Positions 9,578 through 34,898 of a DNA stretch of 64,000 nt are shown piece by piece; position 1 is the first letter of the stretch; each line of letters starts with the position of its first letter. The position numbers were made by a program, and so were the translations under genes. The DNA is from Histomonas meleagridis (Eukaryota > Parabasalia > Tritrichomonadida > Dientamoebidae): contig WSYJ01000157.1 of NCBI GenBank assembly GCA_020186115.1, forward strand, positions 62,001-126,000. Direction: 5' to 3'. Under the pieces are notes generated by a model. The model saw nothing but the letters and a program-made list of their open reading frames with translations. It ran no database searches and was not told where the DNA came from.

Positions 9578-11788
9578 ATGGAAAAATCAAGACAAGCCTT
9601 GCAATTAGCGAGAGAAAGACAAAAGCGGATCAAGGCAGAAAGACAAGCACGTATTAATAAGAGACTTTATGAAGCGATAAGTGTCAAATGTGTTTCAAAC
9701 ATAGAGAGAAATGAAGATATTAATTCAGAAAATGAAGAATATGATGAAATCATTAATTCGATATTGAGAAACCTTGGAGTTCACCCAAATGCAAGAAGAT
9801 ATGATGAAAAAATTTATCAATTAGCATCCAATATTAATTCGATTTCGCCACAAGCTTTACGTTATATTAGATCTTTTATTCCATTACCTTTTTATACATC
9901 AATACATAATCATTTAGCAGATTTAATCAATGAACGTTTTAAGTCTTTGATTGATATTATTAATCAAATAGATGGAATCATAAATGCTTATAAAAACAAT
10001 CAAATTAATATTTTTCGTCCTGCTCCAATGGATTGTATTTTAAGTATTGACGCAATAGCATTTTCGCCCGATGTGACTATAACAAAAAATAATGTAATGA
10101 TTAAGTTAAAAAAAGTAGTTATACAAAATATTGAAAATCCTTATCAATTTTTCTGCGAAAATGCACAACAATGGATAAATTTTTTAATGATAAATTGGAA
10201 TCAAATAAAAAATTATGCCGTTGTTTATTACATTCAATATATAAATCCAGATTATTCGTGCTCAATAATTCATTTTTCTCCTTCATCCCAGGGGAAAGCA
10301 ACAAATATTCAATGTGAAACACTCGAAACATTACGTAATTAATTAAAGAATCATAAAATATATGTTCTTGGATTTGTTTTTGATGGTGATAATTGCTATG
10401 ATTTTTATCATAATTCGTTCTTTGGTCAATATGAATGTGTTGCTGAACATTACACGACTTCAATTGTTGAAATTGCAAAAAGAGTTTTTTTTCGATATAT
10501 TAGTGATCCCCTTCATATATTCAAATGTGCAAGATATCGGTTATATAAAGACGTACCATTAACTATTGGATTTAATCGAAATTCACCAATCATTGACATT
10601 TCCAATATACGAGAAGATTTAAATTCATTACCGATTTTGATTAATAACTCTAAAATCACGAAAATGCACGATATTCTTTCCATTTCTCTATTTTCTATTA
10701 ACAATACTTTAATGCTATATGTAAAACATAATTTTTCAGCATTATTATATTTGTTACCATGGTCTTTGTTTATAGAAGCAATGTCTAATGACAATATAAA
10801 TTTAAGCAAAAAAATTTCGCTATTTGAAATCAGTATCTTATTAAAATTCATATATTATAAATTTATGAAGAAAACAAAATTAGACACAGGAATTAAACAA
10901 GAAAAAATGAAAAATATTGTTGCTTTAACACTTTTTGATGAGAAATTATGTATTCATTGTTGTAATACAATTCATTCATTTGTTACATTACTTCTAAAAG
11001 ATATGAATGCCAAAAAAAGCTTAAATAGATTTACGTCAAATCCTCTTGAACATCAATTTGGATGTTTAAGAATAAAAATGGGTATGTTCAAAACCCTAAG
11101 ATCAGCATTAAAAAGAATATCAACTGATCAAATAATAGCTAGCATAACAGACCAAGAATTACAATTTTTAAAGGTTTCTAAAAGAGCATCATCATTTGGA
11201 ATTACAATTTCATACAATGAATACGATAAATCATTATTTCCATATGATGGAAGGACAATTGCTTATTCACTATTAATTGAAGCAGGATTCATAGTAGAAA
11301 AACCTATTGTTAATGTAGAAAATTTTGATATCATTATTAGTAATCATTCTAAAATCGTGGAAGAATTTTTTCAAATATTATTTGATACATTTTATTTTAA
11401 TACAAAAAGAATAATGAATTCCTTGAGTATTAATGCAGTTACCTTGTCTGTTCAGACAGGTTTAAATGGTAGAAATCTTACACAATCCAAATAATCAATG
11501 GATAAGATATGCTTTATCGAAGATTCTCAAAGATTAAAGATAAGAGAGAAATATCCTTCAATTAATGAAGAAATAATAATTGATTTAAATAAATTATTTG
11601 GAAATAAGTTATTATGTAGTACTCTGAAGGATATCATCGTAAATTGTTCTGAATACTATCAAATTCCATTTTCCAAATATGATACAAAAACAAAGCAAAA
11701 TATGCTCGAATGGATCCAGAAATATTATGATAACATTAAAGAAACAATAGCAGTAATATCAGTTAACTTAAGAGATTTAAATATTTAA
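9578..11788 (+). pseudogene. P-element/THAP9-like transposase with two in-frame stops
   Basis: Three consecutive open stretches (9578-10342, 10343-11494, 11495-11788) lie in one frame, separated only by TAA at 10340-10342 and at 11492-11494; 737 codons in all. Family clues are a basic N-terminus, the segment SPQALRYIRSFIPLP near residue 90 (compare the 'SPKAYEYLR...LPLP' motif of P-type transposases), CILSIDAIAF as a candidate first catalytic Asp strand, a VFDGD strand, SDPLHIFKCAR resembling the D-P-x-H-x-x-K motif, and LEHQFGCLR near the end. I see no THAP zinc finger. Either the copy is dead or the TAA codons are read through. The assignment is by motif only. Confidence 0.6.
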
Positions 11789-22429: not shown

Positions 22430-25066
22430 TTGATGATGAATTTTATGATTAATGCGATAAAATGCTTTTGGTCGACCAAGATTTTAAAAAAAAACGGCCA
22501 TTCGAAAATGGATGAAAGAATGAAATCCATGAATCAAAATTTTTTATTTTCAAATCAACTACTACAAAAAATACTTAACATATCTGAAGAATCACTTGAA
22601 GAACTTGTTTCTTATATCAAATCAATAGAAATTCCACAAGAAGATCTATTATTAAATATTTCAATTGTTTCCGAAATTAGATATAAAACAATAGATTTAT
22701 TAGTTAATTTATTGAAATTAATTAATTCAAATTTTAAAAATGGATTAGATTACGATTTTCTTATGAATCAATTGCAACAAAGAAAAGTGTATTATTTTCT
22801 CCTTCAACTTCTTCAAAATAACTTAATTACTATAAAGAAGATTTGGGAGCGTGCACCTTATGATAAAGATTTATCAACATATTTTAGAGATGAACTTAAA
22901 GAATTTGACCCATTTTTCTTCAGAAATCATTCTAAAACATTATCTACAATAGTTGTAAAGCCAAAAAAGGGAGGACCAAATCAACCAAAAATAAATGTAA
23001 GGATATTTGGATCTGTTGAACCAGAAGAAAGAACATTAAGGATGAACAAAGAACCTATAGCTGCTGCTATTCGTGAAGATAATGTTTCTCTTATGGAAAA
23101 GATAATAACTGATTCTAAATTAAAATTCACAGAATTTATACGTTTAAAAATAAATGAAATGTTTATCGGAACGGTTACCGATAAAAACCCCACACTTATT
23201 GAATATGCAGCATTTTATGGTTCATTTAAATGTTTTAAATTCCTTGTTAAAAAATTAGAATATCTACCAAAACATTTAATTTTATTTGCAATTGCTGGAG
23301 GAAATGTAGATATGGTTCAATTATGTTTAAAGAATAAAATATCATTTGATGATTCATTAGAAACATCAATTAAATATCATCAATATGATATAATGAATTT
23401 ATTACAAAAAAATCATAGGCAAAAGTTAAATTTTTCTTGTTTAAATAATTGCATTGTATATAATAACTTTGAAGCATTTAAATTATACATGAAAAAATAT
23501 AAATCATTTGATATTAACAAAATCATTAATTTAATTTTTCCAAAGTTTTTTTGAAATTTTTGGTATTTATTTTTATTTTTTAGTTATGTTTTAAAAAATG
23601 CTATACGATTTTCCGCAATTAATTATTTAAAAGTTCTAATTCCTGAAGATTTTGAGATAAACTCGACAGATAAAATTTATTTAAAATTTTTAGTAAAGTT
23701 TATCATTTTCTTTTGTTACACTTGCACATGTAGCAGCTGAATGTGGAGCACATGAGTCTATAGTTTTCTTGTCTTCATTTGATTATATTAATTTTAATGC
23801 AAAAGATAAAATTTGTTTTAATAACTTTATGGAATTTTATTATATTTATTGAAACGCCACTTCATCTTGCATCAAAAAATGGACATTTAACAACTACTAT
23901 TGTATTATGTTCATATGAAGGATCATATGTAAATGCAAGAAGTAATGTTTTTTTATCTAACTTAATGGAGTTTTTTGATTATTTATGAAACACCTTTACA
24001 TAATGCAGTTAAAAATGGACAACTTGAAATTATACAATTTCTTTGTTCTTTTCCAGAAACAAATATTAATATAACAGATGTTGATGGAAATACACTTTTA
24101 CATGTCGCTTCTAAAACTGGTTATAAAGAAGTTATTGAGTTTTTAGTATCATTAAAAGGAATAGATGTTAATCAAGCGAATAAGATTTGATATAATTTAT
24201 TTAAAGTTTATTTTTTAGTTTTGGTTTAACACCTTTATTAATAGCTATTGGAAGAGAAAACTTTGATATTGTAGAATTTTTAATATCTCTTGAAGAAACT
24301 GATATTAACTTTAAAACTCAAATTTATTTTTAATGTTTAATATTTATTTTGTGTATTTAATGTTTCTTTTTCTTTCTTCAAAATCTTTTACATTTAGTTG
24401 CTAAGAATTGTCCATTAGATATATTTAAATCAGTTTTAAAAAGAGGTAATTTTGATATAAATGAAACAGATAATGAAGGAATTACTTTATGTTTTATAGA
24501 ACTGCTTTACATTTTGCAGCGTTAGGAAACAATTTAGAAGTTGTTCATTATATTTTATCGTTAAAAGGAACTAAATTTAATCCAAAAGATTCAAAAGGAA
24601 TTTGCGTTATAAATTTCGTACACCTTTTCTTTCTTCTGTATTAAAAGGATCTTGTGATGTTGCTCAATTTTTATGTAATTATGAAGGAATTGATATAATT
24701 GAAAAGACAAATGACGGAATTAATTTTCTGTTTATAGAAATGCTCTTCATTGTGCTTTGCAATCTGCTAATAATGCAATGGTAAAGTTAATTCTTTCATT
24801 AAATATGTTTGATATAAATGTAATAGATAATATTCATTAAATTCTTTCGATGGAATTCTTTAGATATTTATTGGACACCATTACATATCGCTGCTTTAAG
24901 TGGTAATATTAAAAATGTTAAACTCTTACTCTCAACTTATGGTATAAATGTTGAAGCACAAAATAACAAAGGAGAAACAGCATATGACATTGCTCAGAAA
25001 GGAAGAAACGAAAAACTGATGAATTTGATCGAAAGTGGTCCACAGGAACCTGTTGATGAAAACTAA
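22430..25066 (+). CDS. DUF3447/ankyrin-repeat protein interrupted by 17-nt inserts
   Basis: Residues up to about 364 are continuous and carry a DUF3447-type domain (LIEYAAFYGSFKCFKFLV, then FAIAGGNVDMVQLCLK). From 23522 onward every ankyrin repeat is readable, but the frame breaks at most repeat borders. All breaks are explained by 19 AT-rich inserts at codon borders within the D-x-x-G-x-T hairpin: eighteen of 17 nt and one of 18 nt (24185-24202). Removing them (324 nt) leaves 2313 nt, 771 codons ending at TAA 25064-25066. Hairpins regained include DKYGET, SNNGET, DNEGRT, DSKGRT and DNDGWT. Two repeats (ITDVDGNTLL and AQNNKGETAY) have no insert. ATG 22430 is one possible start; the ATG at 22508 (MDERMKSM) may be the true one. 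If the inserts stay in the RNA, this would be a pseudogene. Confidence 0.7.
23522..24871 (+). other. block of nineteen 17/18-nt intervening segments
   Basis: Insert coordinates: 23522-23538, 23545-23561, 23565-23581; 23675-23691, 23698-23714; 23811-23827, 23834-23850; 23947-23963, 23970-23986; 24185-24202 (18 nt), 24206-24222; 24322-24338, 24342-24358, 24362-24378; 24481-24497; 24600-24616; 24719-24735; 24832-24848, 24855-24871. Inserts in one group are separated by one or two codons. All begin with a purine, mostly as RTTT, and end mostly in T. Examples: ATTTTATTATATTTATT, GTTTTTTGATTATTTAT, ATTACTTTATGTTTTAT. None has GT at the start with AG at the end. Exact borders may shift by one nucleotide. 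Confidence 0.75.
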
Positions 25067-30599: not shown

Positions 30600-33500
30600 T
30601 TATTTATTAATATTGAGATTTGCGCGAAGAACTTCAACTACCTGAGAATGATGTCTGGAAATTGCATATGAAAGTGCTGTATGAAATGTTTTATGTAAAT
30701 TCCAAAAAAAGAATTTGTAATTAACTTGAATAAACACCACTTTAAAATCAATAAAAAAGTATTTTTCAAATTGACATTGATTTCTTTTTGCTGAAGTAGT
30801 AGTTTAACTAACTCAAGATTACCATTTGAAGACGCAATCATAAGTGCTGTATTAAATAGGTAAAACAGATTCCAATTATTTTTTTTATACATCAAATAGT
30901 GAAAATGATCTTCAAACAAAAGATTAAAATATTTTTTTCATTAATCTTAATTCCTTCTTGTTGAAGAAGTAATTTAATCATTTCGATATCACCAACCTGA
31001 GCTGCAACTAATAGTGCCATATCAAATAAATCATATAAATCCCTTATTTTTATTAGAAACATGAAACTATTGATGAAAACTTTAGTAATGACAAACAAAT
31101 ATTTTTCTTATTAATATGAATTTCTTTTTGTTTCAAAAGAAATGTAACAACTTCAAGATAACCTTTTTTTATCGTTAACATAAGTATTGTTTCAAATAAT
31201 TAAAAAGAATTCCAAATTTTTTAGTGAAATCAAAAAACGTCAAAACAAAATTTGGATTTAGTATAAAAACATTTTGTGAATCAAAATCAATTCCTTTTTG
31301 TTTAATAAGTATTTGAATAATATCTTCGTGATCCTGTTGCGCAGCGGAAATAAGTGCTGTGTTAAATAATTTGCATAATTTCCAAATATTATTTTGAAAA
31401 ATTAAATTAATAAAATAAGTATCAAATCATATAAATAAATATTTTTTGCATTAATATCAATTCCTTCTTGCTCAAGAAGTAATTTAACTATTTCTGTATA
31501 ACCTTTTTTGGATGCCATTATAAGTGCTGTTTCAAATAATTTAAATAATTCCCAAATAATATTTTAAAATAGAAAATCATTAAAATAAATTATATTTTTA
31601 GCATTTATATCAATTCCTTCTTGTTCAAGAAGTAATTTAACTATTTCTGTATGACCTCTTTCAGACGCACAAATAAGTGCTGTTTCAAATAAATTAAATA
31701 ATTTCTAAATATTATTTTGAAATATCATATTATTGAAGTAAATATATTTTATAGCAAATAAATTTTTTTTCTTGCATTAACATCATTACCTTTTTTTTCA
31801 AGAAGTAATTTAACAATTTCACTCCTGTCACACATAGAAGCTAAAATAAGTGCTGTATTAAATAATTCGATTAATTTCCAATTAATGTATTGGAATACAA
31901 AATTATTAAAACAAATATCAAATAAAGTAAATAAATATCTTTCGCATTGATATCAATTCCTTTTTGTTCAAGTAATATTTGTACTATTTCTTTCTTACCA
32001 TTTTCAGACGCATGTATAAGTGCGGTTCTAAATTTACCGAATTAATTTCAAATATTATTTTGAAATATCAAATTATTAAAATGAATTTTAAATAAAATAT
32101 ATAAATACTAAGTAAAAACATATAAATATCTTTCGCATTGATATCAATTCCTTCATGTTCAAGAAGTAATTTTACTATTTCTGTATGATCATTTTGAGAT
32201 GCATGCATAAGTGCTGTTTTAAATAATTTAAATAATTTCCAAATATTATTTTGAAATATAAAATTATTAAAATAAATTTTAAATAAAATATATAAATATC
32301 TTTCGCATTGATATCAATTTCTTTTTGTTCAAGTAAAATTTGTACTATTTCTTTCTTACCGTTTTTAGCTGCATGCATAAGTGCTGTTATAAATAATTAA
32401 AATAATTTCCAAGTTTTATTATGAAATCCAAAATTATTAAAATAAATTTTAAATAAAATATATAAATATCTTTCGCATTGATATCAATTTCTTTTTGTTC
32501 AAGAAGTAATTTTACTATTTCTGTATGATCATTTTGAGATGCATGCATAAGTGCTGTTATAAATAATTAAAATAATTTCCAAGTTTTATTATGAAATCCA
32601 AAATTATTAAAATAAATTTTAAATAAAATATATAAATATCTTTCGCATTGATATCAATTTCTTTTTGTTCAAGAAGTAATTTTACTATTTCTGTATGATC
32701 ATTTTGAGATGCATGCATAAGTGCTGTTTTAAATAATTTAAATAATTTCCAAATATTATTTTGAAATAGTAAATTATTAAAACAAATTTTAAATAAAAAA
32801 TAAAAACATCTTGAGCATTAATATTAATTTTGTTTTGTTCAAGAAGTAATTTAACAATATCTGTATGATGTTTTTGAGATGCATAAATAAGTGCTGTTCT
32901 AAATAATTTAAATAATTTCCTTATATTATTTTGAAATGTTAAATTATTAAAATGAATAATAAATCAAACAAATAAATATCTTTTGCATTAATATCAACTC
33001 CTTCTTGTTTTAGAAGTAATTTAACTATTTCTGTATGACCATTATAAGATGCTAATATAAGTGCTGTATAATCTCCAAAAATTTCTTTGAAATATAAAAT
33101 TATTAAAACATACACTAAATAAAATAAATAAATATCTTTTGCATTAATATCAACTCCTTCTTGTTTAAGAAGTAATTTAACTATTTCTGTATAACCATTT
33201 TCAGATGAAAGCATAAGTGCTGTTTTAAATAATTTAAACAATTTCCAAATATTATTTTGAAATATAAAATTATTAAAAGAAATACAAAATAAAACAAATA
33301 TACGCTTTTAGCATTAATATTGATACCTTTACAATCCAAAAGTATTTTAACTATTTTGATATGATTATTTTTAGACGCAACAATAAGTGCTGTTTCAAAT
33401 AATCGAAATAAATATCAAATAATAAATTTAATCAAAAAGTTATGAATTAAGATATCTTGCTGATTATATTTAAATCCTTTTTGCTTGACAAGCCATTGCA

Positions 33501-34898
33501 CTGTATCAACGTAACCTTTTTCTGCTGCATTTAAAAGTTGTATATTAAATAATTTAAATAAATTAAGAAAATTTTTATTAAAAATAAAGTTATCAAAACA
33601 AATATAAAATTAATTAAATAAATATTATCTGATGATTTATTAGAATTGTTTTGCTCAAGAACTAATTTAATTATCTCATAATTTCTTGTTGAACATGGAG
33701 AACTACATATGATTGAAAAATATTGTTTGTTTTTAATATAGCGATTTAGAAAGAATACATTTCCAATTTTTATTGCTTTTTCCAGAATCTCTTTGCTTAT
33801 TTTTAATCCAACTGATGTTAAATATATAAACATTTTGAAATTACTATATTTTAAGCTGAGATTTCCGAATTTATTTAAATCTTTGATTTTATTATTATTG
33901 TTTTCATAAAGATATTTAAAGATATCATTTTGATGAAATTCAATTGCTGTTTCATATGCATCTTTAAATGATGAATGATTTTGTTCACATAAATGAATGA
34001 TTTCTTCATTTCCGCCTGCAATTGCATATTTACCTGCGTTATTTACATTTGCACCATTCATAAGTAAATATTTAAAGCATTTAACTGCTGAAAAAAATGC
34101 TGCATAATCAATTAATCTAACATTTTCTTGATTAATGAATGAATATCTTTCATAAAGTGATGGTTCAATTGTTTGATTCAAATCAAAAATACTTTGTGAT
34201 GTTATTTCTTGAAGTTTTTCTATTTCATCATTTCTAACCATTTTTGATATTTCATTTGGATTAACTCCTTCTTTAATTAATTGTTTGTGAAGTTCCCAAT
34301 CATTCTTTGATAGTTCTTCATAATTATTAAAAAAATTTGCTTGTAATTGCTGTGAACCAAAAGGTTTGAATCGAAGTATTTCTTCTTTTGTATAATAATG
34401 CGCAAAATATAATGAATTCTTTTGTTTTATAAAATCCGGTTGAATGAATTCATTTTCAACCATTTTATTAAGTAAATAATTTGATTCTTGTGATTTTAAC
34501 TTAATTAAATATCTTTCGAAAACATATAATATCTTATAGCATTGGATATTTTCTTCTTTTAACTCAATACATTTTAAAAAGTTAAAGTATAAATTTGCTT
34601 CTTTCCTTTGTGACATAAAAGCACTATAGATTAATCTGCTAATTAAAATATTAAATGAATAAGGAAAATTATCATTAAAAAATCTCATTGCAGTTTGAGA
34701 TGATAATTCAAAATTATCTTCTGTTAATTTGAAAATAATGGTTTCAAGTGATTGTAATGGAGTTGGACTTTTTTTTTTAATTGATCTTCCTGAATTATTA
34801 TTTGATGATTTTTGGTTTGTCTTTATAATTTTTTCTGAATTTATCTCAGGTGTTTTCGAACGAATATTCAATGGGTTTCTATTCGAACGAGTTTTCAT
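30600..34898 (-). CDS. DUF3447/ankyrin-repeat protein interrupted by seventy 17-nt inserts
   Basis: From ATG 34898 the frame is continuous for about 420 codons: a basic Ser/Asn-rich N-terminus, a helical region, and a DUF3447-type domain (LIDYAAFFSAVKCFKYLL, YAIAGGNEEIIHLCEQN). Then 18 ankyrin units follow, such as TALMHASQNDHTEIVKLLLE. Between neighbouring units the D-x-x-G-x-T hairpin is split by inserts, usually four of 17 nt separated by single codons. I count 70 inserts (69 of 17 nt and one of 18). Removing 1191 nt from 4299 leaves 3108 nt, 1036 codons including TAA at 30600-30602, all in frame. Hairpins regained include DINGRT, DKTGKT, DKYGKT, DDCGNT, SCYGKT and NDNGNT. An Inr and an M3 motif lie just upstream, so the gene looks transcribed. 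Ankyrin arrays bind proteins; the target is unknown. Confidence 0.72.
30681..33626 (-). other. eighteen insert clusters with 20-nt periodicity
   Basis: Intervals from the D-position codon to the T-position codon (plus-strand coordinates): 33541-33626, 33394-33453, 33224-33303, 33068-33133, 32898-32977, 32728-32807, 32558-32637, 32388-32467, 32218-32297, 32027-32127, 31857-31936, 31684-31766, 31531-31593, 31361-31440, 31191-31270, 31021-31100, 30851-30930, 30681-30760. Most are 80 nt, i.e. four repeats of 17 nt plus a codon. Worked example, 32898-32977: inserts at 32961-32977, 32941-32957, 32921-32937 and 32901-32917; retained codons ATT, AAC, GGA and AGA give D-I-N-G-R-T. The insert order is position-specific: the third insert usually begins ATTTC and the fourth AATTATTT. 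Confidence 0.75.

Follow-up and report, generated by a model that had tools for sequence, protein, structure and literature searches.

The published genome of the parabasalid Histomonas meleagridis, 43 Mb in size and with a GC content of 28.7%, is described as carrying 573-638 annotated introns and never more than one in a gene (PMC8529796). Trichomonas vaginalis, another parabasalid, likewise has short non-coding inserts in its genes, the type A introns and the short type B introns, those of type B being AT-rich and of near-fixed length, at 23-25 nucleotides (nt); T. vaginalis introns have GT/AG ends and a 3' site with which the branch site is fused, and occur once or twice per gene at most (PMC12316389). 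Here we analyze an ankyrin gene located at 34898..30600 on the minus strand of a 64,000-nt stretch of H. meleagridis DNA (contig WSYJ01000157.1, positions 62,001 to 126,000; hereafter, the window), the repeats of which are interrupted by short inserts at their hairpins. These inserts differ from T. vaginalis introns in being 17 nt long, in lacking GT-AG ends in all 492 cases, in coming three to five to a junction and in being separated by single codons. It seems quite likely that one gene family is rid of thousands of such inserts by a process that measures length, acts on RNA (or at decoding), is unrelated to GT-AG splicing and is accurate enough for the single codons to stay under selection and to diversify as surface residues of the protein.

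The gene encodes a DUF3447-ankyrin protein (Pfam PF11929 DUF3447, E 5.3e-10) and, having both a DUF3447 amino-terminal domain and ankyrin units, presents the two features of the trichomonad Ankyrin/DUF3447 proteins. Named matches of its amino-terminal half come from Histomonas meleagridis, Tritrichomonas musculus and T. foetus; the only H. meleagridis protein recovered has matches of 70% or less in this genome, and for a metagenomic relative the ceiling is about 71%. No insert interrupts the 424 codons that precede the first junction. Beyond them, the 18 junctions of the original prediction were recovered, together with its distance of exactly 80 nt between the hairpin residues D and T in 12 of the 18 (the other six measure 83, 60, 66, 101, 83 and 63 nt). 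Under the rules set here, 17 of the 18 junctions can be parsed into codons and inserts without a stop, 13 of these 17 in one way only, and the predicted hairpins DINGRT, DKTGKT, DKWGIT (twice), DKYGKT, DDCGNT, NDNGNT, NKLGET and NEDGNT were all reproduced. The parser lists 66 inserts in junctions 0 to 16, and the predicted total of 70 inserts and 1191 nt would be reached if the last junction held four more. The spacing of the 17 ACAGCACTT-like unit starts follows the same arithmetic, for an ankyrin unit of 34 residues takes up 102 nt and 12 of the 16 intervals measure 170 nt, or 102 + 4 x 17; the rest are 156, 191, 173 and 153 nt, the last being 102 + 3 x 17.

For the genome-wide pattern counts we used an assembly of 43,276,120 bases in 121 contigs, and junctions were collected from the window and from 33 further loci, 20 of them picked for holding one insert sequence and 13 for a homologous amino-terminal domain; of these 34 sources 29 contributed, yielding 204 distinct junctions. 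Measured from D to T, the gap is expected to be 12+17k nt or, more generally, 3h+17k nt with 2 to 6 hairpin codons. Gaps of 12+17k were found in 168 of the 204 junctions (one of 12 nt, three of 29, three of 46, 18 of 63 and 143 of 80), and a further 19, at 40, 60, 66, 83, 100 or 120 nt, correspond to other numbers of hairpin codons plus 17k. A 24-base insert sequence occurs 1,250 times in the genome and at least 107 amino-terminal relatives were scored among 5,499 candidates, so that the inserts number in the thousands. In the junctions of 100 and 120 nt (loci L039, L041 and L010), near-identical ATATGTTTTAATAATTT 17-mers stand in tandem with a different codon behind each, these arrays forming a 20-nt tandem repeat that varies mainly in the codon.

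The consensus junction reads GAT-ATTTATTTGTTTTATTT-x1-ATTTATTTTAATAATTT-x2-ATTTCAAAATAATATTT-GGA-AATTATTTAAATTATTT-x3-ACA, and the residues left when the inserts are removed are those of an ankyrin hairpin, with K, N, E or D at x1, D, Y or N at x2, G in 107 of 123 junctions and N, K, D, E or R at x3. When the 57,155 four-way splits of 68 nt were ranked by the distance of their residue distribution to that of uninterrupted hairpins, the 17/17/17/17 split came first, and it did so in four combinations of reference hairpins (23, 119 or 142; the set of 142 includes P0042-P0161, mostly metagenomic ankyrins) and junction strings (123 or 131). By the same distance, the four models that remove a single 68-nt intron fared far worse (0.44-0.87 against 2.1-2.9). 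A single 68-nt intron per junction was rejected, as it leaves residues unlike those of ankyrin hairpins and scores far worse both by this distance and by a cruder mean log-likelihood. A scan of the removal length by open frames at insert ends informs on that length modulo 3 only.

The single codons between inserts appear to behave as coding sequence. Stop and GT-AG statistics were computed on 492 inserts of classes A to D and 492 lone codons, all from 123 distinct 80-nt junction strings. None of the 492 lone codons is an in-frame stop, while a register shifted one base to the left gives 92, 58, 12 and 87 stops per 123 in the four positions. In a wider sample anchored on the upstream unit alone and free of any filter on the G slot (134 junctions, 536 codons), there is one stop, at x2 of the last junction of the minus-strand gene; in the G-slot-filtered version of this sample, the 153 G codons could not have been stops. 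Exact genome-wide sites number 1,208 for insert-NNN-insert-GGA and 1,015 for insert-NNN-ACAGCACTTAT, against none for a reversed-pattern control, and neither TAA nor TGA, the two stops searched for (TAG was not included), occupies NNN in any of the 1,208 or 1,015 sites. The bases of 100 listed codons per slot predict 4.4 and 6.8 stops in every 100, TAG being counted here too. Since the lone codons are stop-free and shifted registers would not read them whole, removal would take place at codon boundaries and not one base off.

Variability points in the same direction. Units from different loci were compared in 3,250 similar pairs, each pair differing at 1-14 positions of the 90-nt unit. Of the 78 3-nt windows in the junction, the three most variable are exactly x2, x3 and x1 (0.54, 0.52 and 0.40), to be compared with 0.095 for the inserts, 0.125 for the G codon and 0.56 and 0.57 for the hypervariable unit codons 5 and 8. 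The three lone-codon windows are thus 4-6 times more variable than the inserts and on a par with the unit's variable surface codons. The original proposal that the inserts lie outside the protein and the lone codons are read agrees with codon register, with codon variability and with the absence of stops; likewise, its pattern exceeds chance in the stop-free lone codons, in their variability, in the exact genome-wide sites and in the ranking of splits.

We looked among the inserts for the signals of known removal systems. GT-AG ends are absent from all four insert classes of the 123 junctions (0 of 492), and the consensus inserts end in ATTT instead of the fused branch site and 3' motif CTAACACAYAG, for which the genome has 87 matches, several of them in tandem arrays, against 25 for a reversed control. 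No branch motif is common to the four insert classes. Among pooled class-wise distinct strings, 94% start with A or G and 74% have T at position 2. Folding gave no lone insert below -1 kcal/mol (minimum -0.6) and a z of -0.19 for whole junctions (40 sampled), and pairing between insert ends is only slightly above that of shuffled inserts (2.63 versus 2.27 of 5), which does not amount to a structure of the euglenid type. Nor is there a take-off/landing match of the kind used in ribosome bypass, the codon ahead of the insert being repeated at the insert's 3' end in 7 of 492 cases, against a shuffled mean of 5.7. Some inserts do look like shrunken introns with a 5' site and a branch site (GTATGTTTTAATAATTT in junction 3 and GTTTTTTTATCTAACTT in a plus-strand ankyrin gene of the window), a hint in the sequence that the inserts may descend from short introns.

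Ordinary trichomonad introns are nonetheless present in this genome. Three kinase loci, judged by sequence, each have GTATGT ... CTAACACATAG inside the kinase domain, the usual ends being GTATGT and TCTAACACATAG. In the survey behind this observation the best 132 of 635 candidates were scored, a sample biased towards intact ones, and 133 Pfam kinase matches were listed; four of those listed fall clearly short of the full domain, and in three of these the canonical 3' motif follows a short way downstream. The one of these loci that was read in sequence showed no 17-nt insert. The paralogous kinases L042, L043 and L044 carry canonical trichomonad-type introns after the same LLAV motif.

The junctions are not confined to this assembly. 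Open reading frames (ORFs) on public metagenomic contigs (source 'ena') cross from ankyrin units into these junctions and imply gaps of 80 nt (P0044, P0048 and P0103, the first two with an identical junction string), 83 nt (P0057), 63 nt (P0051 and P0052) and 66 nt (P0064); two others are off the rule (P0042, 81 nt; P0050, 96 nt), and P0130, with a gap of 29 nt, is a doubtful match. Their read-through peptides are akin to those of the window, as with IYLFYSKFISIILYFKIIF and IYLFYLKFILIILYFKIIF. An assembly artefact is unlikely, because ORFs on other contigs read through the same junctions. P0113 (gap 65) is not a reader of junctions but a normal ankyrin without interruption that the regular expression had picked up. 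No relatives were found in viral_contigs, and a search with longer candidates returned no close transcript-like long homologue.

Taken together, these data suggest that the inserts are probably skipped exactly, by a process that neither known splicing nor ribosome jumping, as tested here, would explain. The inserts, AT-rich and nearly all of 17 nt, sit at codon boundaries of the hairpin D-x-x-G-x-T, and the sequence statistics support a first step in which the protein is read as if they were absent and the one-codon islands between them are translated. In a second step, they may be cut singly from the pre-mRNA by length-ruled processing, spliceosome-unlike or very degenerate, that would leave 3-nt micro-exons and need no GT-AG, branch motif or stem-loop. 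In a third, the inserts would have spread mainly by duplication of ankyrin units already bearing them, and also through blocks of 17 nt (an insert) or 20 nt (an insert and a codon) being gained or lost. On balance, we lean towards exact RNA excision by such a length-ruled process over bypass, degenerate introns, dead arrays and skipping at the DNA or polymerase level.

Several observations weigh against this reading. The original prediction of an unbroken protein did not hold, for the 101-nt junction at 32127..32027 requires one 18-nt insert and the junction at 30760..30681 presents TAA at its second lone codon under a strict 17-nt rule, with no parse even when one 16- or 18-mer is allowed; possibly this copy of the gene is partly broken, or translation does not extend to its last unit. 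Indels in sister copies that ignore the 17-nt rule would have counted against the original prediction, and 187 of the 204 junctions obey 3h+17k; the other 17 (44, 47, 64 twice, 71, 73, 77 twice, 79, 81 five times, 82, 86 and 101 nt) do not, nine of them differing by one base from 12+17k. Several of these off-rule junctions contain long A or T runs, which could reflect homopolymer sequencing errors. By the mean log-likelihood, the 17/17/17/17 split is fourth of 5,875, the splits ranked above it placing x2 inside the constant part of an insert. The ratio of nonsynonymous to synonymous substitution (dN/dS) in the units is 1.44, 0.93, 0.74 and 0.66 over four classes from closest to most distant, with the fewest changes (0.22-0.25 of differences) at second codon positions, so that the units are on average under at most weak purifying selection. 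The units are tandem and dispersed duplicates, many of them recent, which makes the counts non-independent and none of them a probability, and 20 of the 33 loci were chosen for one insert sequence. Finally, the RNA step is itself inferred from sequence, and a ribosome-based process would likewise place every lone codon at a codon boundary.

This last property is what recommends ribosome bypass, in which the inserts would stay in the mRNA and the ribosome would slide over 17 nt, decode one codon and slide again. Every lone codon is in phase 0, the fixed insert length suggests a ruler, and massive bypassing, with 81 inserts, is described in yeast mitochondria (PMC5009743). Were any of the public contigs above a transcript, the inserts would persist in RNA and bypass would be favored. 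The near-chance take-off/landing match speaks against it without being decisive, given that, according to the same source, this match is not absolute in Magnusiomyces capitatus and several mitochondrial cases are unmatched too (PMC5009743). Also against it are the variety of the codons preceding the inserts (GAT, GGA, AAT, AAA, TAT, GAA), the lack of a stem-loop and the seventy near-perfect hops that one gene would need, and we regard bypass as unlikely. Quite unlikely, in turn, is the idea that the inserts are spliceosomal introns, ultra-short and highly degenerate, that descend from trichomonad introns of the short kind (type B) and have lost the AG. It draws on the A or G start and the T at position 2, on the resemblance of GTATGTTTTAATAATTT and GTTTTTTTATCTAACTT to a 5' site plus branch site, on the variable ends reported for the 23-25-nt type B introns of T. 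vaginalis (PMC12316389) and on the existence of 15-16-nt introns in ciliates (PMC9942806), but it has to face 492 inserts without GT-AG ends and four insert classes without a common branch motif, in a genome where ordinary signals are in use (the three kinase introns with GTATGT and TCTAACACATAG), and 3-nt exons amid 17-nt introns that would give splicing complexes no room.

The 18-nt insert and the TAA of 34898..30600, the 17 off-rule junctions, the dN/dS near 1 in close pairs and the many recent duplicates are what one might expect of untranscribed or decaying pseudogene arrays, in which the 17-nt rule would be a fossil of tandem duplication. Neutral decay, however, would not produce the genome-wide avoidance of stops in lone codons, which in a pseudogene would be free to become stops and have not done so (0 of 492, 1 of 536 and no TAA or TGA genome-wide); the lone codons match hairpin residues and vary like hypervariable codons, which the inserts do not, and a dead array provides no reason for stop-free, variable 3-nt islands amid conserved 17-mers. 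We therefore consider pseudogene arrays very improbable. Removal at the DNA level or skipping by RNA polymerase, with an mRNA that never contains the inserts, would excise any sequence exactly at a fixed length, but insert-free copies of the arrays were not seen, although they were not searched for systematically, and we know of no such process in parabasalids; it appears the most far-fetched of the mechanisms considered.

Along the minus-strand gene, the insert-free amino-terminal part with the DUF3447 domain (33627..34898; ORF 33531..34898, PF11929) keeps an open frame to the first junction, the first D ending at 33627, and is followed by an array of 18 ankyrin units (30600..33543, T-starts from 33543 to 30680) with insert-bearing junctions in between. 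Junction 0 (33544..33626) spans 83 nt, with four 17-nt inserts, five codons and 5 possible parses; junction 1 (33394..33453), with 60 nt and three inserts, reads D-F-D-E-T, and junction 2 (33224..33303), with 80 nt and four inserts, S-C-Y-G-K-T. Junction 3 (33068..33133) has three inserts in 66 nt, none of them between G and T, and 10 possible parses. Junctions 4 to 8, with the units between them (32218..32977), are of 80 nt and four 17-nt inserts each, encoding DINGRT, DKTGKT, DKWGIT, DKWGIT and DKYGKT. They are followed by junction 9 (32027..32127; 101 nt, five inserts, one necessarily of 18 nt), junction 10 (31857..31936; 80 nt, DDCGNT), junction 11 (31684..31766; 83 nt, four inserts, five codons, 5 possible parses) and junction 12 (31531..31593; 63 nt, three inserts, 4 possible parses). 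Junctions 13 to 16 and the units between them (30851..31440) return to 80 nt each, with NDNGNT, NKLGET, NKHGDM and NEDGNT, and junction 17 (30681..30760), also of 80 nt, is the one in which strict application of the rule puts TAA in the second lone codon.

A second ankyrin gene of the window, on the plus strand at ~22430..25066, has uninterrupted hairpins side by side with hairpins holding one, two or three inserts. Its 14 inserts of 17 nt, read by hand, are each a unique string in the window; each opens with ATT or GTT, and in sequence they mostly differ from the inserts of the minus-strand array. Nine measured junctions span 46, 46, 12, 47, 63, 29, 29, 29 and 46 nt, so that eight of nine conform to 12+17k and the 47-nt junction exceeds it by one base. 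Pairs of 17-nt inserts lie, all on the plus strand, at 23675..23714 (23675-23691 and 23698-23714), 23811..23850 (23811-23827 and 23834-23850, DKYGET), 23947..23986 (23947-23963 and 23970-23986) and 24832..24871 (24832-24848 and 24855-24871, DNDGWT); the 63-nt junction holds three inserts at 24322..24378, and isolated inserts in 29-nt junctions are found at 24481..24497 (G, then R-T), 24600..24616 and 24719..24735.

Elsewhere in the window, the housekeeping genes (chaperonin, proteasome ATPase, DEAD helicase and PIG-V) have their Pfam domains in one open frame. Genes at 10343, 27967 and 43681, two of them BspA-like leucine-rich-repeat ORFs, show an apparent single in-frame TAA with length unchanged and are probably ordinary pseudogenes or errors, not cases of 17-nt inserts. 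Beyond the window, the CTAACACATAG motif recurs at a spacing of mostly ~825 nt in C84:1707642-1717695, C9:2518-24247, C55:913585-915242 and C53:618886-620502; the arrays on C84, C55 and C9 lie close to contig ends and are perhaps a subtelomeric tandem repeat with an intron or intron-like motif. A protein kinase domain at C78:376002-376739 (minus strand) lies in an open frame computed as 22,955 residues long, a giant protein.

If exact removal by length is correct, a eukaryotic nucleus would remove or skip inserts without spliceosome signals, dozens of times per message and with one-codon islands in between. Such a process would bear on the minimum size of introns and exons and on the multiplication of introns with repeats, and it would explain genes missed by gene finders, as a finder seeking GT-AG cannot join such pieces. 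Our literature search, the coverage of which left out most subscription journals and preprints, found no report of 17-nt inserts in trichomonad or ankyrin genes.

In heterotrich ciliates, tiny introns have GT-AG ends and, to our knowledge, are not clustered with one-codon exons. Those of Blepharisma, a heterotrich, share the near-uniform, ultra-short length of the H. meleagridis inserts at 15-16 bp and are described as spliceosomal, and a title in the reference list of the same article points to a heterotrich parallel in the tiny introns of Stentor (PMC9942806). The nonconventional introns of euglenids are likewise reported to lack conserved GT-AG borders and to be removed by a machinery that is unknown (PMC6221363), but the 17-mers differ from them in that they do not fold. 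The bypass elements of M. capitatus mitochondria and of phage T4 gene 60 are also many short, frame-breaking inserts, neutralized at decoding (PMC5009743). In the literature we found, nothing corresponds to 3-nt exons in series with a 17-nt insert lacking GT-AG on either side of each. The original claim that one-codon exons are impossible for any known splicing mode was nevertheless too strong, for microexons of 3-15 nt have been described; these too are exons down to 3 nt, but in that account they are flanked by long introns and the usual splice sites (PMC13149111), whereas the lone codons of the H. meleagridis ankyrin genes are flanked by 17-nt inserts.

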